Part shown: one piece after another, positions 9,431 to 41,690 of the stretch
How positions within the stretch are numbered: position 1 is the first letter of the stretch
How the letters are laid out: the number at the start of each line of letters is the position of its first letter
Source of the DNA: Bacillota bacterium
GTDB lineage: Bacteria; Bacillota; Bacilli; Alicyclobacillales; Alicyclobacillaceae
Assembly: GCA_027336365.1 (NCBI GenBank)
Contig: DAHWFY010000006.1
Coordinates: forward strand, 1 to 41,690
Length of the DNA stretch: 41,690 bases
Direction of reading: 5' to 3'
Position numbers and translations under genes: made by a program
The notes under the pieces: generated by a model
What the model was told of the DNA's origin: nothing
The model's database searches: none
The model's input: only the letters and a program-made list of their open reading frames with translations

Positions 9431-9632
9431 AGACGAACGGAAAGGGCTTTACAAGAGGAATTGCTCTTGGAGGTCGATGTCGTCACAGATACGGGTAGCA
9501 TCGGTACACGAGTTTGGGGCACATCGGGGCACATAAGAAATAAGGATCGAAAAAGTTTTGTGGCGGTCATCTAAGATTCCTGTTGTATAGAAGTGGACAA
9601 TTTGTCTAAGACTATCCAATGGGTGATGAACC

Positions 9633-9737
9633 ATGAGAACGCGATACAAAATTTTGTATTACGCAGTGTTAGGCGCCCTGTTGGTGGTTGCTGGTCTGTA
9701 CGTTTGGATTGCATGGAGGAGACTGCACAGTTTCTAG
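9633..9737 (+). CDS. Small single-pass membrane protein (34 aa)
   Basis: A short frame with a basic start (MRTRYK), one hydrophobic helix of about 21 residues rich in Leu, Val, Ala and Tyr, and a basic tail (WRRLHSF), as expected for a bitopic micro-protein with a cytosolic N terminus. GGTGAT (9622-9627), complementary to the 16S 3' end, lies 5 nt before the ATG. A strong terminator follows about 90 bp downstream. It lies in an otherwise gene-poor stretch between the GH18 gene and the convergent hydrogenase-like operon. I do not recognise a family. Confidence 0.45.
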   Translation: MRTRYKILYYAVLGALLVVAGLYVWIAWRRLHSF

Positions 9738-9827
9738 GGAGTTCGAAACACCATGTGTGGCGTGGGGCGGTATTGATGGGCATGTACGCGCATGTGCTGT
9801 AACACTCGCATTCATAGAGCATCATCC

Positions 9828-9857
9828 AACCCCAATCTAACAGGATTGGGGTTTTAA
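9828..9857 (+). terminator. Rho-independent terminator
   Basis: A perfect 10-bp stem, AACCCCAATC (9828-9837) and GATTGGGGTT (9844-9853) with a 6-nt loop, runs into TTTTAATTA on the plus strand. It would end transcripts from the GH18 gene or the 34-residue ORF. It may also stop the convergent operon, although the minus strand lacks a T-run. Confidence 0.8.
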
Positions 9858-9913
9858 TTAATGCAAGCAGATGTTGTATACCGTGTGAAACAATAGATAC
9901 GGAGGTGATTGGC

Positions 9914-9946
9914 ATGAAGACAGAAATTTTGACGCATGAGTTGTAA
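9914..9946 (+). CDS. Possible 10-codon micro-ORF with perfect ribosome-binding site
   Basis: GGAGGTGAT at 9901-9909, a full match to the anti-Shine-Dalgarno sequence, stands 4 nt before an ATG that opens a frame of only ten codons (MKTEILTHEL, then TAA). No larger frame uses this site. It could be a leader peptide, a micro-peptide, or the 5' relic of a deleted gene. No promoter of good quality was found just upstream. Confidence 0.3.
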   Translation: MKTEILTHEL

Positions 9947-9990
9947 AGAGCTTGTCCTGTACAGTAGAGTTTTTTGCGCACAGATCTCAC

Positions 9991-12084
9991 CTAAGCAAGT
10001 CCCGCCCACAAAAGCAATGCAATGACCGCCAGGAGCATGGTCAAAAGATAACCCCACAGGTGACCGTGTTGGAGGTGTCGCACGCCGCGAACAAAAGGCC
10101 ATAAAGCGAGTAGTGGCACTCGATATACCTTCGTTTCCAGCCAGGGAACCGTTGAAGACTGTATTTCAAATCGAAGGGGCAAGGAACTACTCCCTTGCCG
10201 AATGTGGCGGATGACGCGAAAATGGAGCACAGCTCCCCACAACATACGATAGGGATTCGCGTATGCGGTTGCGGTGTACTGCGCTTGGGACACTCGTGCA
10301 TCTCGGCCTCCCAGCCAAGCGGGAACTGAGCGTGTGCCGTAAGTCCGATGGCGGGCACGCGTCAAGGCGAGTCCCAGTAAACTGAAAACGCCAAACCATA
10401 GAAGCACGTAGCTTGGAGCGATGGTGGCGACAAAGGCTCCTGGTTGAAGAATCAGTCCGCGTACAGGCAAGAAAGCACCCAATCTCGCACCTAAAGACAC
10501 GGGGATGGGATTGGCAGTGGGATTTCCAAACACGTTAGGCACCATTGTCGCGATGGCGGATACTCTGGGGGGCAAGTCGCGTACAATCTGGTTGAGGCTA
10601 AACCAAGAGAAAGTAGGAAACCAGCCAAAAAGTGCTGAAGGAATTGCCAATGCAGTCAGGGATAAGCGAACTCCCGAGTGCAAAGGCCGTGTTTGCAACC
10701 GACTGAGCCGAGAATTGCGCGGCCGACCGCTCATTGTGAAGACGAAAACTCGCAAAAATACGGTGAAGGCTAAGGCTGCACCCACGGCGGTTACAGCAGC
10801 GGCCAGAGCAACCCACATCATGGCGGCAGTGGAGGCAGTTCGATAAATTTGAAGCATTCCCTGCAGGGTTAGCCATTCTACGGTAAATCCACTGAAAGGT
10901 GCAACTGCGGCAAGTGTTAAACTGGCTATCAACAGGGAGATGGCCACTCCAGGCATGGCGGCCCACAAGCCGCCCAACTCATCTAAAGAGGTGACCCCAG
11001 TTCGACGCGACAATTCTCCGATGCTGAGAAAAGCCAAGGACTTGGCCAGGGCGTGAGAAATCAACTGCACCAGCAGAGTCATCATGGCGACCGCCGCAAA
11101 TCGGGGTTGGTTGAGTCGAGTGAACAGTATCACCAATCCTAAATTGACAAGCACCAAACCTACGTTTTCGATGCTACTGAACGCCAACACCCGCCGCAAT
11201 TGAGACTCAATGACGGCATATAGAGCTCCCAAAGCAATACCTAGTGCACCGAGCCACAGGACTACAAGACCTACCCACACTGGCAGAGGTGAAAGCCATG
11301 ACATCACGCGTAGAATTCCAAAGATACCGAGATTAAGCAATCCTCCCGCCAAGATGGCGGTTAAGTGCGATGGGGTGACATCATATGCCTCAGGCATCCA
11401 TAATTGCATCGGTAGAACACCAGATTTGGCACCAAAACCAAACAAAGAGAGCAAGAAAACTGCCACACCCACATTTGGGTGGGCATGCAGATGCGCCGCG
11501 ATGGCAACAAAACTCAGAGAGCCACTTGCAGGCGCGGCCAAAACGATGGCTAAAACCAGCAGGAGAAAGCCGATTTCGCTAATCAGCAGGGTGGTATAAG
11601 CGGCTCTCCGCACTCGCTGCAGGTGGTGGTTGACCAAAATGTAGCCATAGGCGCAAAGAGACATTCCTTCCCAAGCTACCAGCAATGGCAAGGCATTTTG
11701 GGCAGTTAATAAAAAACCGGTAAATAAAGACTGAACAGCTACCAGTGTAGCCACACCCCTGCCATTGCCAATGGCTGCATGGTGGCTGTGGGTAAAGGCC
11801 AGTATAGAAGAAGCCATGCCAATCCACCCCAACACAGCAAATAGCAATCCGGCTAAGGGATTCAGAGAGAAGGTCCAGGCGCCAAAAGTACCAATATTGG
11901 GTAGTGAAAACAAGGGAGTGGAAGTTCCTGTCGCGACAACCGTAATCCCTAGCACGGTTTGAATTAAACTGCCCAATGCCACCCACAGCCACACATCTCG
12001 ATGGGATTTTTTCCGCCAGGTCAGCAACATCCATAAGGGTACACAAGAAAACACGACTAAAGAGGCCCAATATTCTTCATTCAC
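9991..12084 (-). CDS. Ehr-type complex, HyfB-like antiporter subunit
   Basis: Last gene of the operon: a NuoL/NuoN/MrpD-like membrane subunit related to hydrogenase-4 component B, about 697 residues with some 14-16 hydrophobic segments and a cytosolic C-terminal stretch. The family motif around WEGMSL and the first conserved lysine region GFGAKSGVLP are present. In the following segment, AILAGGLLNLGIFGIL, a Leu stands where many relatives have a second Lys or His. The GTG at 12084 is preferred because GGAGGTGA ends about 6 nt before it; GTG at 12090 is possible. It overlaps the small-subunit gene by a few bases. It should contribute to ion translocation across the membrane. Confidence 0.85.
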   Translation of the reverse strand: MNEEYWASLVVFSCVPLWMLLTWRKKSHRDVWLWVALGSLIQTVLGITVVATGTSTPLFSLPNIGTFGAWTFSLNPLAGLLFAVLGWIGMASSILAFTHSHHAAIGNGRGVATLVAVQSLFTGFLLTAQNALPLLVAWEGMSLCAYGYILVNHHLQRVRRAAYTTLLISEIGFLLLVLAIVLAAPASGSLSFVAIAAHLHAHPNVGVAVFLLSLFGFGAKSGVLPMQLWMPEAYDVTPSHLTAILAGGLLNLGIFGILRVMSWLSPLPVWVGLVVLWLGALGIALGALYAVIESQLRRVLAFSSIENVGLVLVNLGLVILFTRLNQPRFAAVAMMTLLVQLISHALAKSLAFLSIGELSRRTGVTSLDELGGLWAAMPGVAISLLIASLTLAAVAPFSGFTVEWLTLQGMLQIYRTASTAAMMWVALAAAVTAVGAALAFTVFLRVFVFTMSGRPRNSRLSRLQTRPLHSGVRLSLTALAIPSALFGWFPTFSWFSLNQIVRDLPPRVSAIATMVPNVFGNPTANPIPVSLGARLGAFLPVRGLILQPGAFVATIAPSYVLLWFGVFSLLGLALTRARHRTYGTRSVPAWLGGRDARVSQAQYTATAYANPYRMLWGAVLHFRVIRHIRQGSSSLPLRFEIQSSTVPWLETKVYRVPLLALWPFVRGVRHLQHGHLWGYLLTMLLAVIALLLWAGLA

Positions 12085-12568
12085 AGACACTCACCTCCGG
12101 ACGGTGTTGCACCGCACTTAGAATTCCCTGCAGGACTGCGTAGGGGGTGGGAGGGCAACCAGGTACCCAAGCATCTACGGGAATCACACGGTCTACAGGC
12201 CCAACTACCCATGAACTGTTGCGGAAAATCCCACCGTGTAAGGCACAGACGCCAGTAGCAACCACCAGCCGAGGTCTTGGCATGGCGTTGTAGGTGGCTA
12301 ATAGCACGTCTTTCATGGCTCGAGTCACCACGCCGCTCACCAATAGGAGATCTGCGTGACGGGGAGAAGGGGTAAAGAACAAGCCTAATCGATGGAAATT
12401 GTAGTATGGGTTGGACAAGGCTAGTATCTCTGATTCACAGGCATTGCAAGATCCAACATCAATGTGGCGTACGTATATGGAACGGTGAAAAACCTTTCTG
12501 AGAGCGGCGGCCGTATTTTGCTCCAACTGCTCCCAGTCACCAAGCGGGTGGTGTGTCTCAGTGGTCAT
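12077..12568 (-). CDS. Ehr-type complex, NuoB/HyfI-like Fe-S small subunit
   Basis: Cytosolic small subunit homologous to NuoB and to HycG/HyfI of formate hydrogenlyase; it carries the proximal [4Fe-4S] (N2-type) cluster. All four ligand cysteines appear present: two in GSCNACE, one in GVCALHGG and one in PGCPPTPY. 163 residues, typical for the family. The start ATG has GGGGGGAAAG upstream; the gene overlaps the ferredoxin-like gene by 11 bp and the HyfB-like gene slightly, indicating translational coupling. An intact cluster here, opposite a large subunit with no metal ligands, suggests that the electron path is kept and the hydrogenase site is lost. Confidence 0.92.
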   Translation of the reverse strand: MTTETHHPLGDWEQLEQNTAAALRKVFHRSIYVRHIDVGSCNACESEILALSNPYYNFHRLGLFFTPSPRHADLLLVSGVVTRAMKDVLLATYNAMPRPRLVVATGVCALHGGIFRNSSWVVGPVDRVIPVDAWVPGCPPTPYAVLQGILSAVQHRPEVSVCE

Positions 12569-12902
12569 GCCTACTTTCCCCCCTTTGTCGCAACAAATCT
12601 TTTCGCGTCACGGCCAAGTCAATGTCTGCTGACCACGCGAAAACGCCCTGGGGGCATTGTGCGATACAGCGTCCACAGGCAATACAGGCTGCACGGTCCA
12701 GTTGGATTCCAGTTTTGTCCTTGCTTATAGCTCCCGTCGGGCACAGGTCTTGGCACTCACATTCGAAACGATGACAAGGTGTGATAATAGATGGTATAAT
12801 ATTCCAATTATGGTGTTTTTCTAAAACGTGTTCGCGACGGCTAGGATAATCGGTTGTAACACGCCCACTTGCCCATCCGGAACGCAACCAATTTGCAAAC
12901 AT
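12558..12902 (-). CDS. Ehr-type complex, HyfH/HycF-like ferredoxin subunit
   Basis: A 114-residue electron-transfer subunit. The second ferredoxin motif is canonical, CIACGRCIAQCP. The first is unusual, CHRFECECQDLCPTGAI, where the normal CxxCxxC spacing is replaced by C-x4-C-x-C-x3-CP, so the first cluster may be altered or bound differently. An excellent ribosome-binding site (AAGGAGG) precedes the ATG. Homologues of this subunit (NuoI/HycF/HyfH) pass electrons to the NuoB-like subunit. The gene sits between the large- and small-subunit genes, as in hydrogenase-4-type operons. Confidence 0.88.
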   Translation of the reverse strand: MFANWLRSGWASGRVTTDYPSRREHVLEKHHNWNIIPSIITPCHRFECECQDLCPTGAISKDKTGIQLDRAACIACGRCIAQCPQGVFAWSADIDLAVTRKDLLRQRGESRHDH

Positions 12903-12995: not shown

Positions 12996-14537
12996 TTAAC
13001 GATCCGTACCAGCGTAAGATAAACCAAAACTGGCATCAATAACGGGGAAGTCAGTTTGAATATTTCCGTTGGACACGGCCAATCCAAAGACAGGCCAAAT
13101 CCAACTGGAGGCTCCTCTGATGCGCGAATTATTCAGGTATACGTCATCCTTCAATTGCAGAACATGGCAGACACGCCCACGAGGACCCTCGACAATACCG
13201 ACGCCCCATCCGTCAGGGGGGTCGGAGTGAATGGGGTGGGTGGATGAGACAGGCCGTGGGAAGTCTTTGTATTTTCCAACGTTAGTCAATTCTTTCCCAT
13301 TGCATAAGAGGTCCAACAATTTTCTTATCATCCCCTGAGATACGTGCCATTCCAGCACTCGTACCTCGAATCTGTCCAGAGCGTCGCCTTGCCCCCGTGT
13401 AGGCAGGCAGATATGATAACCTGCAAGCTGTTCAATTTCACTTTCATTGCGGGAATCCACTGATGCTCCACAGGCTCGTGCCACCGGTCCAACCAGTCCA
13501 TAGGCGTCGACCCAATCCTTTCGCACACGTCCGGTACCCACGAGTCGATCCACGAAGGTGGGGGTATGGCGCAGCAGGTTTGTGAAATGAGTGAATCGAC
13601 GGTCGGCATTTTCCAGGACCGATTCTACCTCACTTCTCACCTGTGACCAGGTCACCTGGCAAGTATCGCCCATACGTACAGACCCGCGCAGGTAACGGGA
13701 GCCCGTCAGATCACCGTTGAGTCGTAGCAGTTCCTCTTTCACCCGGGCAAGTTGAGCCTGTCCGACACTCATTCCTGCTGCAGATGCCAGTTGAGCCAAA
13801 TCGTGAGCATGGTTGTACAGCCGTTCCATCTCAAGCCATAAAGAGCGTTCCCACTTTATTTCCACAGGAACTGTCCGATGTAACGCTTGCTCGGCTGCTT
13901 GGCAGAAAGCCATGGAGTGAGCCACCGTGGCTGTGCCAGATACCCTTTCTGCCAACAACAGGGCGTCCGCGATGGATTGATGGATGCCCAGCGTCTCAAT
14001 GTCTCGATGTTTATAGAACAACTGCGGTTGCAGGTGCATGATCTGTTCACCTATGGTTTCGAACAAGAAAAATCCTGATTCGCTCACATCCGCCCGCACG
14101 GGTCCGAGGGGCAAGCGGAAGACGCCTGCGCCAGTAACCATACCCTCTGGCAAATATTCTTCGGGATGAAGAATAGGTTGTAAATCCGGATGACCCACAG
14201 GTTCCATGCCAGTGGTCTGCCACATTTCTCGTTCTATCCAAGAAGCTGCGGGCCAGTGGGTTGCCAAAGAAGGTACTCGGCCGTCTGAGGGTGGTTGAGC
14301 GAACCGCCACTGTACCAATCCTGTGACTGGATCTCTTAGTACCGCCAGAAGATGGGGAGTTGAAGGGTAAGACACCCAGCCGTAATACAACAACTGAGCC
14401 TTAGGTAAGTTTGTTTTATCCACAGGCAGACAGTGATGGACTACCCAAGCCACCAAATCTGCAGAAGAGGACTGTGTCTCTTGCAGATTGTCGTCCAATT
14501 CCCTATTTTGTGAGGCATGAACTTGTACATCTTCCAT
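12996..14537 (-). CDS. Ehr-type complex, NuoCD/HyfG-like large subunit lacking all NiFe ligands
   Basis: A 513-residue homologue of HycE/HyfG and NuoCD. An N-terminal NuoC-like part (about 30-130) is followed by the NuoD/large-subunit domain. In [NiFe] hydrogenases the first motif is RVCGIC and the last DPCxxC. Here they read RVSGTA (Ser200, Ala203) and DASFGL (Ser503, Leu506), so all four nickel-iron ligands are absent and the C terminus ends SYAGTDR, closer to NuoD. It therefore cannot hold a NiFe centre and matches the defining trait of Ehr complexes. The ATG at 14537 has GAGGAGG 10 nt upstream; the frame extends further up but overlaps the preceding gene. No maturation genes are nearby. 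Confidence 0.9.
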   Translation of the reverse strand: MEDVQVHASQNRELDDNLQETQSSSADLVAWVVHHCLPVDKTNLPKAQLLYYGWVSYPSTPHLLAVLRDPVTGLVQWRFAQPPSDGRVPSLATHWPAASWIEREMWQTTGMEPVGHPDLQPILHPEEYLPEGMVTGAGVFRLPLGPVRADVSESGFFLFETIGEQIMHLQPQLFYKHRDIETLGIHQSIADALLLAERVSGTATVAHSMAFCQAAEQALHRTVPVEIKWERSLWLEMERLYNHAHDLAQLASAAGMSVGQAQLARVKEELLRLNGDLTGSRYLRGSVRMGDTCQVTWSQVRSEVESVLENADRRFTHFTNLLRHTPTFVDRLVGTGRVRKDWVDAYGLVGPVARACGASVDSRNESEIEQLAGYHICLPTRGQGDALDRFEVRVLEWHVSQGMIRKLLDLLCNGKELTNVGKYKDFPRPVSSTHPIHSDPPDGWGVGIVEGPRGRVCHVLQLKDDVYLNNSRIRGASSWIWPVFGLAVSNGNIQTDFPVIDASFGLSYAGTDR

Positions 14538-14578
14538 GATATTTTTCCTCCTCACACGGATCGGGCCCGTAGATTGGG

Positions 14579-16012
14579 TTACCGTCCCAAGAGAATTCCT
14601 AAAGACCATAAGACGGGGAGCAGCATCCCAAACGCGAGAGTTCCCACAAGGTGTAAGCCGGTTGGCAATGTAGCGGTCAAAGTCGGGAGTGGCCTGACTG
14701 TTCGATTAAGGCGCGTTGAGATTTCACCATATCCCATGGAAATGGAATAACGGAGAAAATTAGCAAACAGCAACGCAAGGAACAGTAGGAGTAGTGCTGC
14801 CAACAAGGGAGAGCCCGTTTTAACTAAGGCAAAAATCACCATAAATTCACTGATGAACAATCCAAAAGGAGGAGCTCCGGCAATGGCCAGCATGCCAAGA
14901 ACCAGCGTTTGTCCTGTCCACGGCAACGCTCGCGCGACTCCACTGAGGCCTTCCATCTCCGTAGAACCCCATGCATGCTGCAGTTCTCCCGAGTGGTAAA
15001 ACAGCATCGACTTGATTAAAGAATGATTCATCATCTGTAAGTATCCGGCAATGACACCCAGTGGTCCAAGGGAAAAGGCAATTGCAGCGACACCCAGATT
15101 TTCTGAACTGGAGTAAGCGAATAAGCGTTTGAAATCCTTCTGGTATAGCGTCATTAAAGTGCTGATGGCCACAGTCAAAAATCCTAATGTCGCCAATGTA
15201 TGATCTGCAAACGGGCCATTTCCTCCCCCTTGCAGGACTTGCTGGGTACGCAGGATGCCATATAGTCCACAATTTAACTTAATACCACTGAGCATGGCAC
15301 TGATGGGCGAGGGTGCCTGACTGTGTGCGTCGGGGAGCCATGCGTGAAATGGGACTAAACCAGCTTTCGTTCCGAACCCGGCAAGAATGAGCACGAATGC
15401 TAGACGCGCAACAGAGGCGGGAATGGATTTGGCGACTGCCAGAAGTCCTGTCCAAGTGGTGGCAACAGACGCATTTGGTTGTAATCCCACCAGCAACAGG
15501 AGACCCAGCAATGCCAATAATCCACCAAATTCCATGATGATAAGGTACTTCCATGCGGCTTCGTGGTTGTCTTTTGTTCCTTTCCAGTCAACCAGCAAAA
15601 CAGAGGCTAAGGCGGTCAGCTCAATGGCACCCCAGGTCATAAAAATATTGTTCAGTAAGACCACAGCCAGCAGGCTGTCGTAGAATACCAACAGCAGAAC
15701 AAAGTAGGTCCGCTCCTGACTGACCGTGTCAAGGTCCACTTGCTCTTGGCTGTGCCGACGAACGTATCCCACTGAATACAAGGCGGCTGTGAAGCCCACA
15801 AAGGCAGTAATGCCCGCAATCACGGCGCTCAATCCATTGATGGCTAGCCATGGGCCGATGCTGGGAGTGCCTTGGAGATACCCCAGGATGAGTATACTCA
15901 GGTTGAGAACCGTGGCTGTCACAGGGAGCCAGCGGCGTACTTTCCCCTGTATAAACCAGACCAGGACAGCGGTGAGGAGAGGAATGGCTAGTAAAAAAGG
16001 TTGGCTGGTCAT
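14579..16012 (-). CDS. Ehr-type complex, HyfF-like antiporter subunit
   Basis: A 477-residue, about 14-helix NuoL/M/N-like subunit related to hydrogenase-4 component F. The acidic residue in WGAIELTAL and lysines in GFGTKAGLVPFHAWLPDAH and in SGIKLNCGLYGIL match the charged residues that form the proton path in complex I antiporter subunits. The start ATG follows GAGGGGG, just after the stop of the HyfE-like gene (4-bp gap). Both antiporter-like subunits (this one and the HyfB-like one) are encoded, as in hydrogenase-4, which suggests a strong ion-pumping module. Confidence 0.9.
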   Translation of the reverse strand: MTSQPFLLAIPLLTAVLVWFIQGKVRRWLPVTATVLNLSILILGYLQGTPSIGPWLAINGLSAVIAGITAFVGFTAALYSVGYVRRHSQEQVDLDTVSQERTYFVLLLVFYDSLLAVVLLNNIFMTWGAIELTALASVLLVDWKGTKDNHEAAWKYLIIMEFGGLLALLGLLLLVGLQPNASVATTWTGLLAVAKSIPASVARLAFVLILAGFGTKAGLVPFHAWLPDAHSQAPSPISAMLSGIKLNCGLYGILRTQQVLQGGGNGPFADHTLATLGFLTVAISTLMTLYQKDFKRLFAYSSSENLGVAAIAFSLGPLGVIAGYLQMMNHSLIKSMLFYHSGELQHAWGSTEMEGLSGVARALPWTGQTLVLGMLAIAGAPPFGLFISEFMVIFALVKTGSPLLAALLLLFLALLFANFLRYSISMGYGEISTRLNRTVRPLPTLTATLPTGLHLVGTLAFGMLLPVLWSLGILLGR

Positions 16013-16016
16013 TAGG

Positions 16017-16646
16017 TTACCCCCTCAGGCTGTGGTAGTGGTCCAGTCGGACTCCTTCCGACTGATGCAGTTTTAACATTAAAACGACAAACAATATCAC
16101 AGCCAGCGCTACTTCTACAAAAACGGTGTAATCTGCAGTCGCAGAGACCCGCCAGAGCGTGGTGGCTAGAGCTAAATCCACACCATTTTCCGCAATAAGC
16201 ATTCCTAACATTTGTTTTCCGGCGTGGTGAGCAAAAGACATTAAAGCTAGCCCTGTCAAGAGGGTGGCTAAAGCCGTCCCGTAAGGCAGACCTCGTTGGC
16301 CGATGCGGCTATTCATCAAGAATATGGACAATAACCCCAGCGCCAATGAAAACAGCACTAGAAAGGTCGGCGTGATGCGGTAGGCGATGTCTCGTTCCGA
16401 TTGCAAGAGGGGAGGCAGTCGCCTGTGAATGAACCAAGGAATCCACAAGCCTCGAATGGACACTAAGCCGAATAAAGAAACCCATACACCGATGTCATGG
16501 GTGAGTAGCCCCTGACGCCCATACAGCAGGGCAACCAAAGCGGTTTGGAGCAGATAAACCCACAGCCCTGTATTAACCTCCCGTACTGCGGTGGCCCATA
16601 CCGCCAAGAGATAGACCCCTAAATAAATCCACAAGAGCCACGTCAA
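16017..16646 (-). CDS. Ehr-type complex, HyfE-like membrane subunit
   Basis: A 209-residue protein with about six to seven hydrophobic segments, matching hydrogenase-4 component E, whose C-terminal half resembles NuoK. Acidic residues within the membrane part (IAENGVDLAL and FVEVALAVILF) correspond to the NuoK-type glutamates of the proton path. It starts with TTG preceded by GGAGGGG. It lies between the NuoH-like and HyfF-like genes with 43-bp and 4-bp gaps. Confidence 0.85.
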   Translation of the reverse strand: MTWLLWIYLGVYLLAVWATAVREVNTGLWVYLLQTALVALLYGRQGLLTHDIGVWVSLFGLVSIRGLWIPWFIHRRLPPLLQSERDIAYRITPTFLVLFSLALGLLSIFLMNSRIGQRGLPYGTALATLLTGLALMSFAHHAGKQMLGMLIAENGVDLALATTLWRVSATADYTVFVEVALAVILFVVLMLKLHQSEGVRLDHYHSLRG

Positions 16647-16689: not shown

Positions 16690-17637
16690 TCAGATATTTA
16701 TGACTGTCAGGACAACGGCAACCACAGCGCAAGCTGCGGCACCGGCCATGAATTCCGCGATGCGCAACAAACGCAATTTGCCAATGGAGGATTCAATCCA
16801 CACCACCACCCCATCCAGAATCAAAAATTTTGCGAATACCGCTAGTACTGCCCAGAAAACAGCTCCAAGACTTGGGGCCTTTGCAAGTCCCCAAGGTGTC
16901 GTCATCACGTTTAGGAGGATGACACCGAGAACCATGGATTTCATAGTGCCACCCCACTCAATCAATGCCAAATCAGGGCCAGAATAATCATATACCCTGT
17001 TTGCGTCAATCATGGAAAATTCCCGATGGGAGGATGGATTATCTACTGGAATACGGCCTGTTTCAGCTAACCATATGGCAAAGAAGGCCACAACAAGGAG
17101 GAGATGAACTGGAGACCAAACCATTTTGGCAAATGTCTGGTTGACCACGTAAGGAATCGTGGCATGAGTGCTGAAACTGACGGCAATGAGAACAAGCAAC
17201 AGAACCGGTTCAGTGGTCATGGACACAAATCGGGCTCGCGTACTACCGATACCTGCGTATGGGCTACCACCTGCCGTGGCGCCGATTAGCAAGGTGAATG
17301 TCCCCAATCCCAGAATAAATCCTCCTGCCAACATATCACCTGCAAAGGCCATGAACAGGGGAAAGGTCGTCAAGACGGGAATCAGTAAGGCAACAATCAG
17401 TGGTGCGGCGAAATAAATGTAGGGAGCGACGAGATAAGCAGGGCCAGCGTCTGTTGGCACGAGTCTCTCTTTGTGAAAAAGCTTTCGCAAGTCTCGGTAT
17501 ACTTGAAAAATACTTGGGCCCTGTTTTCCTTGAATGAATTCTTTCCAACGATTCAGGATGCCTTTAATGAGGGGGGAGAGGAGTAAAATGAAGAGAATTT
17601 GTATGGCCTGTAATTCGATAGCTCTACCTAGGGACAC
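16690..17637 (-). CDS. Ehr-type complex, HyfC/NuoH-like membrane subunit
   Basis: First gene of the operon. The 315-residue protein has about eight hydrophobic segments and matches NuoH/HycD/HyfC, the subunit that joins the soluble arm to the membrane arm. The motif GKQGPSIFQVYRDLRKL after the first helix and the loop ETGRIPVDNPSSHREFSMID are characteristic. The GTG at 17637 is the start because GGGAGGAGG lies 7-8 nt upstream; the frame continues to 17691 without support. The leader carries a fluoride riboswitch. Confidence 0.9.
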   Translation of the reverse strand: MSLGRAIELQAIQILFILLLSPLIKGILNRWKEFIQGKQGPSIFQVYRDLRKLFHKERLVPTDAGPAYLVAPYIYFAAPLIVALLIPVLTTFPLFMAFAGDMLAGGFILGLGTFTLLIGATAGGSPYAGIGSTRARFVSMTTEPVLLLVLIAVSFSTHATIPYVVNQTFAKMVWSPVHLLLVVAFFAIWLAETGRIPVDNPSSHREFSMIDANRVYDYSGPDLALIEWGGTMKSMVLGVILLNVMTTPWGLAKAPSLGAVFWAVLAVFAKFLILDGVVVWIESSIGKLRLLRIAEFMAGAAACAVVAVVLTVINI

Positions 17638-17699
17638 CTGGTTGCCTCCTCCCAGTGGGTGGCGAATTTTGCAAATCCGGGAGGGGTCCAAAAGGACAC

Positions 17700-17744
17700 A
17701 AATAAATAATAACCCCTACCCGGTGTAGTAACCTGGATAGGAGT
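17700..17744 (-). terminator. Riboswitch-controlled terminator of the Ehr operon leader
   Basis: On the minus strand, ACTCCTATCC (17744-17735) can pair over 10 bp, including G-T pairs, with GGGTAGGGGT (17721-17712); a TATTATTTATTT tract follows. The 5' arm contains the ACTCC that closes the aptamer helix, so aptamer and terminator exclude each other, the expected design of a fluoride ON switch. Confidence 0.8.
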
Positions 17745-17783
17745 CATCAGCCTGTTGGCACTTACGGCGAACTCCATCGCCAC
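17734..17783 (-). promoter_or_regulatory. Fluoride riboswitch (crcB motif) of the Ehr operon
   Basis: The minus strand reads GGCGATGGAGTTCGCC, a short loop stem, then GGCTGATGACTCCTA. This is the crcB consensus: the GGCG/CGCC pseudoknot, the GGAGT/ACTCC helix and the invariant GCTGATG strand. It lies about 40 nt after the promoter and about 95 nt before the first gene. When fluoride binds, the helix should form and prevent the overlapping terminator, so expression rises with fluoride. Confidence 0.95.
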
Positions 17784-17816
17784 TATGAGACAATAGCCGG
17801 AGCAACAATCAACGAT

Positions 17817-17845
17817 ATTATATACAACCTGGGTGGGTCTTGCAA
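17817..17845 (-). promoter_or_regulatory. Sigma-A promoter of the Ehr operon
   Basis: On the minus strand TTGCAA (17845-17840) and a perfect TATAAT (17822-17817) are 17 bp apart. Transcription should start near 17810, giving a leader of about 170 nt that contains the fluoride riboswitch and terminator. Confidence 0.85.
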
Positions 17846-33174: not shown

Positions 33175-33663
33175 ATGGTGTTTTTGATTGTACCACAACC
33201 TGTCTCAAGGTGTCATCGAGGTCGAAAATACATGGGTCGCCCACGACACCTTTTGAAGCAAAGGCAACCTATGGGAAGACCTATGGAAAGCAGATAAAAA
33301 CGTGTGTTCACAAAGAGGATTGTGACTGTCTCAATGTGCCTACCGAGGACAACGTCGGCATCGTTCACAACCCGCAGGTCAAGCAGAAGGGCCTACCCTG
33401 CCCCCACCACAAGCATATCGGGTGCTGCAGCGGCGCCGAACGGGGGAGGGTGTATCAGGACGACTATATGGCCACTCCACAGGATACGTATGCCCATTTT
33501 TCAAACGGGCGGGTGATTTCACAGGCTTCTGAGGAGTCCTCGGTGCCTCCGATTAAAATTCTGGGCAATGCGGACATGCATCTCAGTACTTCCCCACCGC
33601 TCACAGCAGTTTTAATATTGTCTCTTAGACAAAATATTACGCGGATTGGTCAGGAACCATCGA
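33175..33663 (+). pseudogene. Unidentified, probably broken gene
   Basis: A frame starting at ATG 33175 has a good GAGGAG site (33163-33168) but stops at 33297 after 40 residues. Another frame, open from 33117 to 33668, takes over with coding-like codon use (many G/C third bases about 33330-33480) and a Cys/His-rich stretch (LPCPHHKHIGCC). Together they suggest a gene with a frameshift near 33240-33295. I cannot assign a family; a degraded transposase or a zinc-binding protein are possible. Confidence 0.3.
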
Positions 33664-34839
33664 GCTAATCATTACAACAGAGACAAGCACGGCCAATGCG
33701 GCGAATGAGAAAGCCAAAGACATCATGTGACCGCCGAAACTCCAAAGTCCACCAACCAGCACGCCGGAAACAAGGGTTCCCCAGCCCATCACGCTGGCAT
33801 GTAGCCCTAATCCACGGCCGCGTATGGACGTCGGAAGGGCTAGACTGACATAGGTCTTTTGCACCGATTCCTGTGTCCCAGTGGAAATACCAGCAAGGGT
33901 GAACAGTACAGCATACGCTGCAATCGTAGGTGGCAGAAGGGCGAATCCTACCAGCGCTAGGACAAGGGCACCATAACCGACTAAAAGAACTGGACGCGCA
34001 CTAAATCGGTCGGCTGCGTTCCCCGCTATGAAGGCGACGATTGCGTAGACAAAATTATACCAAGTGTAAAGAAGAATGCCGATCATTGAGGCCTCAATGG
34101 CACCAAGTTTAGCAGCGAGGCTTGTAGCTGCGGCAAGAATGAAGAAACTTGGTGCCACGTTTCCTATGCTAAACACGGCGTCTGCCGCCAAAAGACGTCG
34201 AAACGCCTGTGGATAATGAATGCGAGCAGGTTTCATCGTCGCGATTCTGCCAATGTGGTGCATAGGCTGGCTGCGATTGTCGCGAACGAACCACAGAACC
34301 ATGAGCAGAGATAAAAGGCTTGGTGCAGCGCTCCACCAAAATAAGTTGCGATAACCGATTCGAGACAGTAGCCAAGCACCGAGCAGTGGTCCGGCCATCC
34401 CTCCTAATGTATCCATGCCTTCACGGAATCCAAGGGCTTTGCCATATGCCGACCGCGGAACAGTTTCGCTGATTAATGTGTCGCGCATCGGACCGCGCAT
34501 TCCTCTCCCAACCCAGCCAACGGTGCGGATTAAGACCATCCACGGCCAAAAGGAGACAAGACCATATAAAGCTTTGAGCGCTGTCGCAGCGTAACCTATA
34601 ACCAGGTAGGGAATGCGATTTTTGGTCTCGTCAGCACGTACTCCACTCCAAAGATTTGCTAGATTCTGTCCGATTCCAGACACGCCTTCAATTAAACCCA
34701 ACGCAATCGGCGGTGCACCTAGGGCTACAAGGAATCCCGGGGTCAATGCCGTTACCAGTTCGTGACCTAAATCACTGAACAAAGATGCCATGGCAAATCC
34801 AAAAATAGTTCGATTTAACCAACTTTTACCCCAATTCAA
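33637..34839 (-). CDS. MFS transporter controlled by a fluoride riboswitch
   Basis: Major facilitator of about 400 residues with twelve hydrophobic segments. The loop-2/3 region (GVRADETKNRIPYLVIGY) and GRGMRGPMRDTLISETVP after helix 4 are typical of the set of permeases that resemble resistance-type facilitators. TTG at 34839 is chosen since AGAAGGGAAGTGAG precedes it; TTG 34866 has no such site. Its leader carries a fluoride riboswitch and terminator, so it should be induced by fluoride. A direct role in fluoride export is possible but not established; no CrcB/Fluc or CLC-F channel is in the window. Confidence 0.85.
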   Translation of the reverse strand: MNWGKSWLNRTIFGFAMASLFSDLGHELVTALTPGFLVALGAPPIALGLIEGVSGIGQNLANLWSGVRADETKNRIPYLVIGYAATALKALYGLVSFWPWMVLIRTVGWVGRGMRGPMRDTLISETVPRSAYGKALGFREGMDTLGGMAGPLLGAWLLSRIGYRNLFWWSAAPSLLSLLMVLWFVRDNRSQPMHHIGRIATMKPARIHYPQAFRRLLAADAVFSIGNVAPSFFILAAATSLAAKLGAIEASMIGILLYTWYNFVYAIVAFIAGNAADRFSARPVLLVGYGALVLALVGFALLPPTIAAYAVLFTLAGISTGTQESVQKTYVSLALPTSIRGRGLGLHASVMGWGTLVSGVLVGGLWSFGGHMMSLAFSFAALAVLVSVVMISSMVPDQSA

Positions 34840-34879
34840 AGACTCACTTCCCTTCTTTAAATTCAACTGCGTTGATTAA

Positions 34880-34930
34880 AAATAAATAAGACCCCCATCA
34901 GCCAAGAAAATCCTTTGACCGATAGGAGCC
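34880..34930 (-). terminator. Riboswitch-controlled terminator of the MFS leader
   Basis: On the minus strand CTCCTATCGGTCAAAG folds back on CTTGGCTGATGGGGG (one bulged A, several G-T pairs) and is followed by TCTTATTTATTTTT. The 5' arm contains the aptamer's GGCTCC strand, giving mutually exclusive folds. Confidence 0.8.
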
Positions 34931-34964
34931 ATTAGCATTCGCAGTTGAGGCGAGCTCCATCACC
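34919..34964 (-). promoter_or_regulatory. Fluoride riboswitch (crcB motif) of the MFS gene
   Basis: Minus strand: GGTGATGGAGCTCGCC, a short stem, then GCTAATGGCTCCTA. The helix AGC(T)/GGCT region, the pseudoknot strands GGTG/CGCC and the GCTAATG strand match the crcB consensus (GCTAATG is also found in Bacillus examples). It lies about 30 nt after the promoter. Confidence 0.93.
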
Positions 34965-34997
34965 TTGGAACATTTATAGTTTTTACATTCAATTAGT

Positions 34998-35026
34998 AGC
35001 ATAGCGTGTCTCACAGGGGGAGTCAA
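34998..35026 (-). promoter_or_regulatory. Promoter of the riboswitch-controlled MFS gene
   Basis: On the minus strand TTGACT (35026-35021) and TATGCT (35003-34998) are 17 bp apart. It is divergent from the enolase promoter only 27 bp away. Confidence 0.8.
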
Positions 35027-35052
35027 TCTGATACGTTGAGGCTGTGCTCATG

Positions 35053-35081
35053 TTGCAGGAAATACGGGCACCTGGTATAAT
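35053..35081 (+). promoter_or_regulatory. Promoter of the enolase gene
   Basis: TTGCAG (35053-35058) and a perfect TATAAT (35076-35081) are 17 bp apart. Transcription should begin near 35089, about 20 nt before the riboswitch. Confidence 0.88.
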
Positions 35082-35107
35082 TCGGTGTGAATAGGATAGT
35101 TGTATAT

Positions 35108-35153
35108 GGCGATGGAGCTCGCCCAAATGCTGGCATGCTGATGGCTCCTGACT
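35108..35153 (+). promoter_or_regulatory. Fluoride riboswitch (crcB motif) of enolase
   Basis: GGCGATGGAGCTCGCCC, a short stem, then GCTGATGGCTCCTG. The pseudoknot strands GGCG/CGCC, the helix GGAGC/GCTCC and the invariant GCTGATG are all present. Enolase is a classical fluoride target, and fluoride-riboswitch control of enolase genes is known in other bacteria. Confidence 0.95.
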
Positions 35154-35193
35154 TAGCGGGTTTATGATACCTGCCTAAGTCAGGAGTCTTTTT
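35143..35193 (+). terminator. Riboswitch-controlled terminator of the enolase leader
   Basis: GGCTCCTGACTTA pairs with TAAGTCAGGAGTC (13 bp, one G-T pair), extended inward by GCGGGT/ACCTGC, followed by TTTTT at 35189-35193. The 5' arm overlaps the aptamer's closing strand, so fluoride binding should allow read-through into eno. Confidence 0.93.
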
Positions 35194-35388
35194 CGTGTGA
35201 GTGCACCATGGGAATAAGTTTCCGGGGATAACTCTACCATCACCTGGTATAGCGAAATGTATCCATGTGTTTCAATTTATGGATATAACTTCATGCTGCT
35301 TTTGCGGCACCAGCAAGGGACGTAATTCCACGTCATTGTATTTACTGGGAAAGACAGAAAGTCAATCCTAAAATGAGAGGGTGGTTTT
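35194..35388 (+). other. Enolase leader downstream of the riboswitch
   Basis: 195 nt of untranslated leader with no gene. GAGAGGGTGG at 35375-35384 is the ribosome-binding site. No second regulatory element was recognised. Confidence 0.5.
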
Positions 35389-36669
35389 ATGGAACAGATA
35401 TTGAACATTAAAGCACGTGAAATTCTCGACTCACGAGGATTTCCCACTTTGGAAGTGGATATGCAACTTTCCAATGGTTCTTTTGGCAGAGCCTCAGTGC
35501 CGTCAGGAAAATCCACAGGAACAAAGGAAGCAGTGGAGTCGAGAGACATCCATGTGAAGAGGTTTGGTGGGAAGGGTGTGACGAGCGCGGTTGGCAATGT
35601 AGAACAGGTGCTTTTCCCTGCCCTCAAAGGTAAGGCATTTGCAACTCAAGAAGACCTAGATCAATCTCTCATTGAATTGGATGGTACTCCGGATAAAAGA
35701 CATTTGGGTGCCAATGCAATTTTGGGGTGTTCCCTTGCTTTTGCTCGTGCTACGGCAAATGCAAAAAAGGTACCTTTGGTTCGTCACTTAGCCAGTTTGT
35801 ATGAAGCAACAGACCTTACTCTACCCGTGCCAATGATGAATGTCATTAATGGCGGAAAGCACGCTGATTCGGGAATAGCCACTCAAGAATTTATGCTTGT
35901 ACCACATGGCGCTCACAGTGCCGCGGAAGCGGTCTGGATGGGGGCGGAAACTTATCAAGCATTGCGGGAACTGCTTAAGACGAAAGGTTACCGCGTGTCC
36001 GTAGGGGACGAGGGGGGGTTTGCTCCACACCTGAATTCTACAGAAGAGGCACTTGAAATATTAACTTCGGCGATAGAAAAAGCGGGGTATGTGGCGGGAG
36101 AACAGATTTCTTTGGGAATTGACTTTGCTGCCAATGATTTTTACAGGAACGGTATGTACTGGTTTGAGGGTCAACGCTGGACGGCGGAGAAAATGACAGA
36201 TTATTGTATTGGGCTGGCAAAGAAGTTTCCTGTTGTGTCTATTGAAGATGGGTTGGCTGAGGACGACTGGGATGGCTGGATTTATCATACAACTCGGCTG
36301 AATGATGCGGGGCTGCAGTGTGTTGGCGACGATATTTTCGTGACCAACGCCCGTATCTTTCAAGACGGGATTGACAAAGGCGTGGCGAACGCCATTTTGA
36401 TTAAGTTGAATCAAATTGGGACGCTCACGGAAACTTTCGAGACCATGAGGTTGGCGAAAAAATCCGGATACAGGACCGTGGTTTCTCATCGGTCTGGAGA
36501 AACAGACGACGCGTTTATTGCAGATTTTGCCGTGGCTACAGGTGCTGGACAAATGAAGGCAGGAGCCCCAGCACGAGGAGAACGAGCTGCTAAATATAAT
36601 CAATTAATACGCTTGGAAGAAGAATTGCAAAGTGTCTTGTTGGCCCGAGAATTATATGCACGACACTGA
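35389..36669 (+). CDS. eno: Enolase, divergent form under fluoride control
   Basis: Converts 2-phosphoglycerate to phosphoenolpyruvate. 426 residues, with the expected catalytic set: Glu208 (GDEGG), metal ligands Asp245, Glu286 and Asp314, Lys339 (ILIKLNQIGTLTET), SHRSGET and Lys390. Several normally constant residues differ: the mobile active-site loop reads SGKST (Lys41) instead of SGAST, GGKHADSGIATQEF replaces the usual GGEHADNNVDIQEF, and KAGAPARGER replaces KTGSPSRSER. It stands apart from other glycolytic genes and is controlled by a fluoride riboswitch, so it may be a second, fluoride-tolerant enolase; a canonical copy elsewhere in the genome is expected but not visible. ATG with GAGAGGGTGG upstream. 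Confidence 0.95.
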   Translation: MEQILNIKAREILDSRGFPTLEVDMQLSNGSFGRASVPSGKSTGTKEAVESRDIHVKRFGGKGVTSAVGNVEQVLFPALKGKAFATQEDLDQSLIELDGTPDKRHLGANAILGCSLAFARATANAKKVPLVRHLASLYEATDLTLPVPMMNVINGGKHADSGIATQEFMLVPHGAHSAAEAVWMGAETYQALRELLKTKGYRVSVGDEGGFAPHLNSTEEALEILTSAIEKAGYVAGEQISLGIDFAANDFYRNGMYWFEGQRWTAEKMTDYCIGLAKKFPVVSIEDGLAEDDWDGWIYHTTRLNDAGLQCVGDDIFVTNARIFQDGIDKGVANAILIKLNQIGTLTETFETMRLAKKSGYRTVVSHRSGETDDAFIADFAVATGAGQMKAGAPARGERAAKYNQLIRLEEELQSVLLARELYARH

Positions 36670-40757: not shown

Positions 40758-41690
40758 TTAATCATTTGGTTCAAATATTTTATGATATAAATCTTCTCCA
40801 TAACTCGTTTGCAAGGGTTCGCCTATGGTTATTTTAAAAGTTCTCTCTCCATTGTTTTGTCGCTCAGCACGTAAAAAAATAGTATTTTCAATTCTTTTAT
40901 CATAGAACCCATGCGCAAATAAAAATAAATGCGTAACAAAGAAAACTTTGATATGTTTCTCTAATAATGCGCAACTTATTTGTCTGGCAATCTCTGAACC
41001 CTCTCTTTCGTTTGTCGCGGCAAATGATTCATTAAATAGTAACATGGAATTTAATGTAATATTATCCACAATACCACTCATTCTGCTGAGTTCTTCATCA
41101 AGTTTTCCGCTATTCATGGTGGTGTCTTCTTCCCGCTTGTAGTGTGTGAAGAGATTATCATAGATATTGGCACAAAACGACTCTGCGGGGACAAACATTC
41201 CACATTGCATCATGAGTTGGGCCAAACCTACGCTCCGCAAAAAAGTCGATTTACCTCCTTGATTGGCACCTGTGATCATCACGAGGTCCTTGTTGTCTAA
41301 ATTTATAGAATTACCTACGACTCTTTGTTCTACATTTAAAGATAGACAGACATCGTATAATCCCTTAAAAGAATGTCTCCGTTTTTCAGGAGCCATGGGC
41401 AGGGGGAAACACATCGGTTCGCCCTTTTGGGCAAGTCGTTCAGATAAATTCAAACATCCCATGTAAAAGGCTAATTCGGTCCGCAACGTTTTGAAAAAAC
41501 TGAGGATATGATCATTGGACTGGGCAAGGGCATTTGCGACAAGGTTGATTCCTCTATCTCTTAATTCCGATAGGGCTCTTGCGCCACTTTCATCGCGCTC
41601 ACCGATGCTAAAAGAGTAAACGGGGGGCCCTTTGGTAAAAATCCTCTCCATCCAACTCGATTTTTTATTTTGTGGTTTGCATAGTATGTA
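40758..41690 (-). CDS. MutS-family ATPase-domain protein, 5' truncated
   Basis: A MutS-like ATPase (domain V type), open to the window edge; at least 310 residues. Walker A is GANQGGKSTFLRSVGLAQ, Walker B LLFNESFAATN with the Asn-Glu pair common in this short branch, followed by the GSEIA motif and FFVTHLFLF. It lacks the visible clamp and lever features of true MutS, so a role in mismatch repair is doubtful. The ATG at 41651 is probably internal. MutS-like genes are known among crcB-riboswitch-linked families, but the leader of this gene is outside the window. The base composition is more AT-rich than its neighbours. Confidence 0.85.
   Translation of the reverse strand, partial: YILCKPQNKKSSWMERIFTKGPPVYSFSIGERDESGARALSELRDRGINLVANALAQSNDHILSFFKTLRTELAFYMGCLNLSERLAQKGEPMCFPLPMAPEKRRHSFKGLYDVCLSLNVEQRVVGNSINLDNKDLVMITGANQGGKSTFLRSVGLAQLMMQCGMFVPAESFCANIYDNLFTHYKREEDTTMNSGKLDEELSRMSGIVDNITLNSMLLFNESFAATNEREGSEIARQISCALLEKHIKVFFVTHLFLFAHGFYDKRIENTIFLRAERQNNGERTFKITIGEPLQTSYGEDLYHKIFEPND

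Follow-up and report, generated by a model that had tools for sequence, protein, structure and literature searches.

A fluoride riboswitch upstream of a hydrogenase-dead, Ehr-type membrane complex in Alicyclobacillaceae, Sulfobacillia and plasmids of other phyla

RNAs of the crcB motif have been reported in front of genes annotated as formate hydrogen lyase (Weinberg 2010), and a review of 2024 repeats this link and suggests fermentation as the underlying process (PMC11139923). The enzymes to which this annotation refers, formate hydrogenlyase and hydrogenase-4 of Escherichia coli, share their types of membrane subunit with the complex described here, which is devoid of the [NiFe] cysteines. 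Closer in this respect are the Ehr complexes, which combine the subunit set of group-4 hydrogenases with a lack of [NiFe] ligand motifs; each Sulfobacillus species studied was found to possess such a complex, to which no function was assigned and in connection with which fluoride is not mentioned (Justice 2014, PMC4378227). More distantly, complex I and Mrp antiporters share homologues of HyfC, HyfF, HyfB and HyfI as well as the proton-path Glu and Lys of HyfF, while the operon examined here lacks an NADH module and its HyfB has lost the Lys of TM8 and the His of TM7. A literature search, for which most subscription papers lay outside the scope, yielded no paper that joins a fluoride riboswitch with an Ehr-type complex.

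The present analysis concerns a contig of 41,690 nucleotides from a member of the Alicyclobacillaceae (GCA_027336365.1, DAHWFY010000006.1), referred to as the window throughout. A first-pass annotation had noted a crcB motif on its minus strand, ahead of a hydrogenase-4-like operon of seven genes, and had asked why an ion-pumping complex should be induced by fluoride.

Riboswitch and operon in the window

The Rfam covariance model RF01734 matches the minus strand over its full length (17790-17731, E 4.1e-11, gathering score 34) with zero non-standard pairs, and the motif placed at 17734-17783 by the first-pass annotation lies inside this match (Table 1). Covariation across 36 aptamer sites supports both stems and the pseudoknot, with 99.1% of cells paired and a covariation of 0.302 versus 0.167 in shuffled alignments. 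The competing terminator was likewise recovered: the 3' strand of the pseudoknot, ACUCCUAUCC (17744-17735), pairs at all ten positions with GGGUAGGGGU (17721-17712), which is followed by the U-rich UAUUAUUUAUUUGU. It was missed by a simple terminator scan and came to light through its pairing with the pseudoknot strand. The promoter is also present as claimed, but constitutes a weak match on its own statistics, because one was seen where about 0.7 are expected from shuffled sequences. Aptamer and overlapping terminator together are arranged as is typical of fluoride-ON transcriptional switches, so that, by analogy with the riboswitch family, the operon is probably switched on by fluoride. An alternative hairpin, CCGGGUAGGGGU/ACCCCUCCCGG, has a duplex energy of -20.5 kcal/mol compared with -14.1 kcal/mol for the terminator arms (17723-17677); it shares a segment with the terminator, which renders the two mutually exclusive, and could act as an antiterminator.

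Table 1. Features of the fluoride-riboswitch loci in the window
Feature	Positions	Strand	Basis
Sigma-70-like promoter TTGCAA-17-TATAAT	17817..17845	-	consensus scan, 10/12
Fluoride riboswitch aptamer (crcB motif)	17731..17790	-	RF01734 50.2 bits; own model R1 60.7 bits (training set includes this very site)
Intrinsic terminator overlapping the aptamer pseudoknot strand, U-rich tail	17698..17748	-	10/10 pairing
Alternative, putatively antiterminator-like hairpin	17677..17723	-	duplex energy
Ribosome-binding site GGGAGGAGG, likely GTG start at 17637	17645..17653	-	sequence; I2511 orthologue
HyfC/NuoH-like membrane subunit	16690..17637	-	PF00146, E 2e-31
HyfE-like membrane subunit	16017..16646	-	NF008556 hydrogenase 4 membrane subunit, E 1e-6, below cut-off
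HyfF-like antiporter subunit	14579..16012	-	PF00361, E 1e-47; TM5 Glu131, TM7 Lys216, His223 kept; Lys245 clade-specific
HyfG-like large subunit (NuoCD fusion), without [NiFe] cysteines	12996..14609	-	PF00346/PF00329; motifs GPVRADVSES, K200, DASF
HyfH-like 2x[4Fe-4S] ferredoxin subunit	12558..12902	-	Fer4 families; two Cys motifs
HyfI/NuoB-like small subunit	12077..12568	-	PF01058, E 5e-29; four cluster cysteines C41, C44, C108, C138 kept
HyfB-like antiporter subunit	9991..12090	-	PF00361, E 6e-39; TM8 Lys replaced by Asn253, TM7 His by Gln229
Second fluoride riboswitch, before MFS transporter 33637-34866 (-)	34916..34973	-	RF01734 43.4 bits
Third fluoride riboswitch, before enolase 35389-36669 (+)	35099..35157	+	RF01734 35.5 bits; overlapping terminator ending TTTTT

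Matches to Pfam and NCBIfam subunit families bear out the seven-gene operon, whose genes follow the riboswitch in the order hyfC-E-F-G-H-I-B. Alicyclobacillaceae bacterium I2511, the nearest named genome, features the same operon behind the same riboswitch, and its hyfC starts at a GTG matching the one proposed here. An open reading frame at 9571-9990 (139 aa), considered as an eighth subunit, matches neither a Pfam nor an NCBIfam family, is not recovered by tblastn in relatives, and is probably spurious.

Two further fluoride riboswitches reside in the window, where they form a divergent pair serving an MFS transporter and an enolase (33637-36669), and a fourth precedes a MutS-like gene elsewhere in the same genome. 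The RNA itself does not differ from RF01734 in aptamer, pseudoknot or overlapping terminator, and the enolase and MutS-like targets are of reported kinds; the unusual part is the target complex. Since the genome encodes an additional enolase and a standard complex I as well, the fluoride-induced copies would duplicate housekeeping functions. A cluster of the MoxR/DUF58/DUF4129 type begins within 6 bp 3' of the window's enolase. At the contig ends, an NhaC-type Na+/H+ antiporter (2-928) and a MutS-domain gene (40758-41651), both reported kinds of riboswitch target, have their upstream ends cut by the contig edge. Similarly, a contig of the same assembly with a CrcB pair (C300:50340-51100) ends 21 nt upstream of it, where a riboswitch is possible.

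The large subunit and its clade

Homology to group-4 subunits, the lack of [NiFe] ligands and the presence of antiporter-like and NuoH-like subunits place the complex among the Ehr types. In the alignment, the window's large subunit reads ERVSGTATVAH and DASFGLSYAGTDR where group-4 hydrogenases carry ERICGVCSxSH and NKSFELCYxCxDR. Throughout the clade to which it belongs, all four cysteine positions are substituted, mostly by T/S, S/A, S/T and G/S, with one stray Cys. The clade is marked by [DE]AS in place of NKS (ESS in the member of genome G426), by a gained K200 (55/55) and by the conversion of GPxHAGxxEP to GP[VI]RADVxES. In a tree computed without the columns of the ligand loop and the C-terminal motif, all 39 large subunits with [DE]AS fall on one side of a single branch, which received support of 100/99 and was recovered in every one of 200 bootstrap trees (100%). 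Mycobacterium sits on a long branch whose precise position is uncertain. Ehr types that retain NKSF are separate from this clade and themselves occupy two places in the tree. Compared with other Ehr complexes, the clade thus stands apart by [DE]AS, K200, the loss of the HyfB TM8 Lys and a dedicated fluoride riboswitch, which was not encountered with the NKSF types examined.

The nearest solved relative, by sequence as well as predicted fold, is HycE of E. coli (7z0s_E, TM 0.77). In the AlphaFold model of the large subunit, the core is well predicted whereas confidence is low precisely at the rewritten motifs (170-177 and 533-537), which leaves the new pocket unreadable. The hydrogenase maturation protein HypD was not found in any of eight related genomes, including the complete genome of Alicyclobacillus sp. 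ALC3. The assembly containing the window does hold, on a different contig (C343:11665-12048), a C-terminal fragment of HypD, which may be contamination or belong to another hydrogenase. Because the [NiFe] ligands are missing, the site is predicted no longer to make H2; the earlier statement that the target complex is not a hydrogenase stands.

Recurrence of the pairing in genomes and on plasmids

A profile of the subclade run against 84,980 species genomes returned 48 loci from Alicyclobacillaceae, Sulfobacillia and metagenome-assembled genomes grouping with them, a scan that cannot show absence elsewhere because its search motifs came from the clade itself. Overall, clade members occur in Alicyclobacillales, in Sulfobacillia and on plasmids of Mycobacterium, Burkholderia and Caballeronia. 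Testable operons, i.e. those with hyfC and some upstream sequence, numbered 44, four plasmid-borne ones included, and 43 of them have a riboswitch match (R1 E <=0.1, or an Rfam match; some weak) immediately upstream. The 44th, L105, was dismissed as a counter-example: inspection by eye reveals a sub-threshold riboswitch whose overlapping terminator pairs perfectly. In Mycobacterium branderi, a NUDIX gene lies between riboswitch and hyfC. Several Sulfobacillia matches are weak when taken singly (R1 E 0.02-0.07), and those of L074, L086, L093 and L101 fall under the Rfam gathering score. The terminator sequence varies by species and yet, in most of 23 folded leaders, pairs with its own aptamer; position and overlapping terminators therefore lend support to the weak matches. 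Translational control in Sulfobacillia, which tblastn distances placing hyfC starts right against the aptamer had brought up, was rejected on account of overlapping terminators in several of them.

No riboswitch preceded the operon at 40 control loci of Bacillota, mostly CxxC hydrogenases or Ehr types with NKSF, nor at ten NKSF-type homologues from plasmids. The 59 genomes of the order to which the window belongs gave 35 matches, which separate into 13 of the clade, scoring at least 420 bits, and 22 scoring at most 307 bits; the 17 of the latter that were read all carry the hydrogenase cysteines. An RF01734 match is listed in place for nine of the 13 clade copies and for none of the 22 others; of the remaining four clade copies, one is on a contig that is cut, and the other three, which are related, gave no RF01734 match at the stricter filter used, while their close relatives L075-L077 have weak R1 matches. 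Where both paralogues coexist in one genome (G426, G444, G001), the riboswitch is found only at the clade member. Some operons are preceded by tandem copies: two in G426 (L248) and, in G444 (L247, 3867-4171), three, each with its own terminator, directly before hyfC.

These controls bear on the published reading, according to which a formate hydrogenlyase is induced for a shift to fermentation under fluoride. Gene annotation and the statement of the 2024 review (PMC11139923) speak for it; the link itself, as stated in the first-pass annotation, agrees with Weinberg 2010. The substituted cysteines, the absence of HypD from the eight related genomes and the CxxC paralogues of the same order that lack a riboswitch run counter to this reading, which appears very improbable and, as judged from sequence, is already contradicted for the fluoride clade. 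In every case examined, the motifs indicate that the published link is to a hydrogenase-dead subclade of Ehr complexes.

The clade also resides on plasmids. An operon with its own riboswitch was found on plasmids of Burkholderia cenocepacia, B. multivorans, Caballeronia sp. and M. branderi, where the neighbouring genes, listed as a union over the islands and not all present in each, encode CrcB, a CLC-family channel, enolase, phosphoglycerate mutase, pyrophosphatase, DUF190 and MFS proteins and paired MutS-domain proteins. A plasmid of ALC3 (L070/L199) carries a stand-alone large-subunit gene with a riboswitch of its own, adjoining riboswitch-linked genes for CrcB, MFS, MutS-domain and sigma-factor proteins. 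The fluoride island of Enterobacter cloacae FRM (PMC5533749) shares with these islands riboswitch-controlled enolase, pyrophosphatase, CrcB and stress-protein genes, although its reported six-gene operon is devoid of an Ehr-type complex.

The view that the pairing arose through chance gene arrangement or common ancestry and serves no function could draw on the many matches that stem from related Sulfobacillia and hence are not independent. It is hardly credible in light of a riboswitch directly before the operon in three phyla, of two or three tandem aptamers at some operons and of the stand-alone ALC3 gene with its own switch. We are highly confident that the riboswitch controls the operon and that the latter belongs to a fluoride-resistance regulon.

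On the ALC3 plasmid, seven fluoride riboswitch matches lie within 15 kb, one of them before the gene of a sigma-70 family factor that is possibly fluoride-induced. MutS-domain ATPase genes, often paired, recur under fluoride riboswitches (L002, L199, L200, L201, L207), and on the M. branderi plasmid (L207) a riboswitch of 53.6 bits (10498-10558, minus strand) directly precedes a run of PE/PPE/WXG100 genes, an unexpected neighbour. Riboswitch-linked proteins of ALC3 (412 aa) and Burkholderia (432 aa), considered as homologues, showed no similarity, and a search of plasmid DNA with the aptamer alone as query gave zero matches.

Possible roles of the complex under fluoride

Taken up as HF, fluoride acidifies the cell interior and diminishes the proton-motive force; Fluc channels require an inside-negative potential, and Na+/H+ antiporters are the next most common targets of fluoride riboswitches (PMC11139923). 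Acidophiles, whose potential is inside-positive, have to expel protons when exposed to HF (PMC12831704). An ion-moving complex induced by fluoride would fit this background. In the reading that we favour, the 3' half of the aptamer would pair with the downstream sequence in the absence of fluoride and transcription would terminate, while fluoride, as in other members of the riboswitch family, would allow the pseudoknot to form and release the operon. The seven-subunit, hydrogenase-dead complex thus induced would then most likely move protons or other ions, counter the acid load and the loss of membrane potential caused by HF, and thereby let CrcB and other exporters work, with electrons passing through HyfH and HyfI as a possible power source in the window's version. 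We consider the chances evenly balanced that ion movement by the complex defends pH and membrane potential in this way. Acid adaptation alone was discarded as the reason, given that Burkholderia, Caballeronia and Mycobacterium, from which plasmid members come, are not known as acidophiles.

The claim of the first-pass annotation that the complex pumps ions finds support only in part. HyfF keeps the antiporter residues, with TM5 Glu and TM7 Lys conserved in 49/49 members and Lys or Glu at a TM8 site in 47/49; this extra charge is lacking in M. branderi and Caballeronia. In HyfB, on the other hand, the TM8 Lys is replaced in 52/52 clade members, compared with Lys in 40/42 others, the TM7 His is lost in 51/52 and the TM5 Glu in 12/52, while the TM7 Lys is kept. 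The electron wire is equally uneven: the four cysteines of HyfI persist in nearly all members and Alicyclobacillaceae keep HyfH, but no canonical ferredoxin cluster motif was found at any of 38 Sulfobacillia-type loci, where those read closely have a cluster-less N-terminal remnant fused to HyfI. This loss is not unique, as HyfI lacks a ferredoxin domain in some other Ehr operons too (L195, L202). The losses in HyfB and of the Sulfobacillia clusters make an ordinary redox pump doubtful, and the latter loss implies that the link to the riboswitch does not depend on a full electron path.

An alternative electron-transfer enzyme, which would pass electrons from ferredoxin or another donor to an acceptor other than hydrogen and so bypass fluoride-blocked metabolism while pumping protons conventionally, would account for the intact cysteine motifs of HyfH (two) and the four cysteines of HyfI in Alicyclobacillaceae, and would make the complex a stress-specific duplicate alongside the complex I and second enolase of the genome. 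It appears rather unlikely in view of the absent [NiFe] ligands, the altered proton path of HyfB and the ferredoxin clusters missing from all Sulfobacillia loci.

With these clusters gone, an ion transporter that is gated by, or independent of, redox reactions deserves serious consideration, and together with the losses in HyfB this leaves room for a secondary transporter or even a fluoride carrier. The complex would then itself carry F-/HF, or couple F- export to proton flow, via remodelled HyfB/HyfF channels and a new charged site at the former [NiFe] position, its redox parts being relics. The clade-wide rewriting of both the former active site and the TM7-TM8 charges of HyfB and HyfF, the electron wire lost in Sulfobacillia and the constant link to fluoride across phyla are consistent with such a carrier. 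Nevertheless, it is quite unlikely, as the islands of Burkholderia, Caballeronia and ALC3 already contain a CrcB or CLC-family gene for an exporter, and the HyfF of M. branderi and Caballeronia does without the extra charge; moreover, we know of no precedent for anion transport in the superfamily of the complex. Rather unlikely, too, is the wider notion that a machine resembling complex I and derived from a hydrogenase was converted, in one clade that spans at least three phyla and also travels on plasmids, into a complex dedicated to handling ions under fluoride, its former [NiFe] site rebuilt as a charged one; such a complex would possibly be independent of redox reactions and possibly a carrier of F-/HF.

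Irrespective of how the complex works, a published puzzle can be re-read: "formate hydrogenlyase" targets of fluoride riboswitches have been listed since 2010, and the riboswitch-linked complexes examined here are all hydrogenase-dead members of one clade. An orphan complex of the Ehr type thereby gains a physiological context, fluoride, and a clear predicted condition of induction, which renders its function testable. Recurring in acid-loving bacteria and in plasmid islands of other phyla, the pairing suggests that this poorly understood complex belongs to bacterial fluoride survival, and it may have a bearing on the fluoride tolerance of bioleaching acidophiles.
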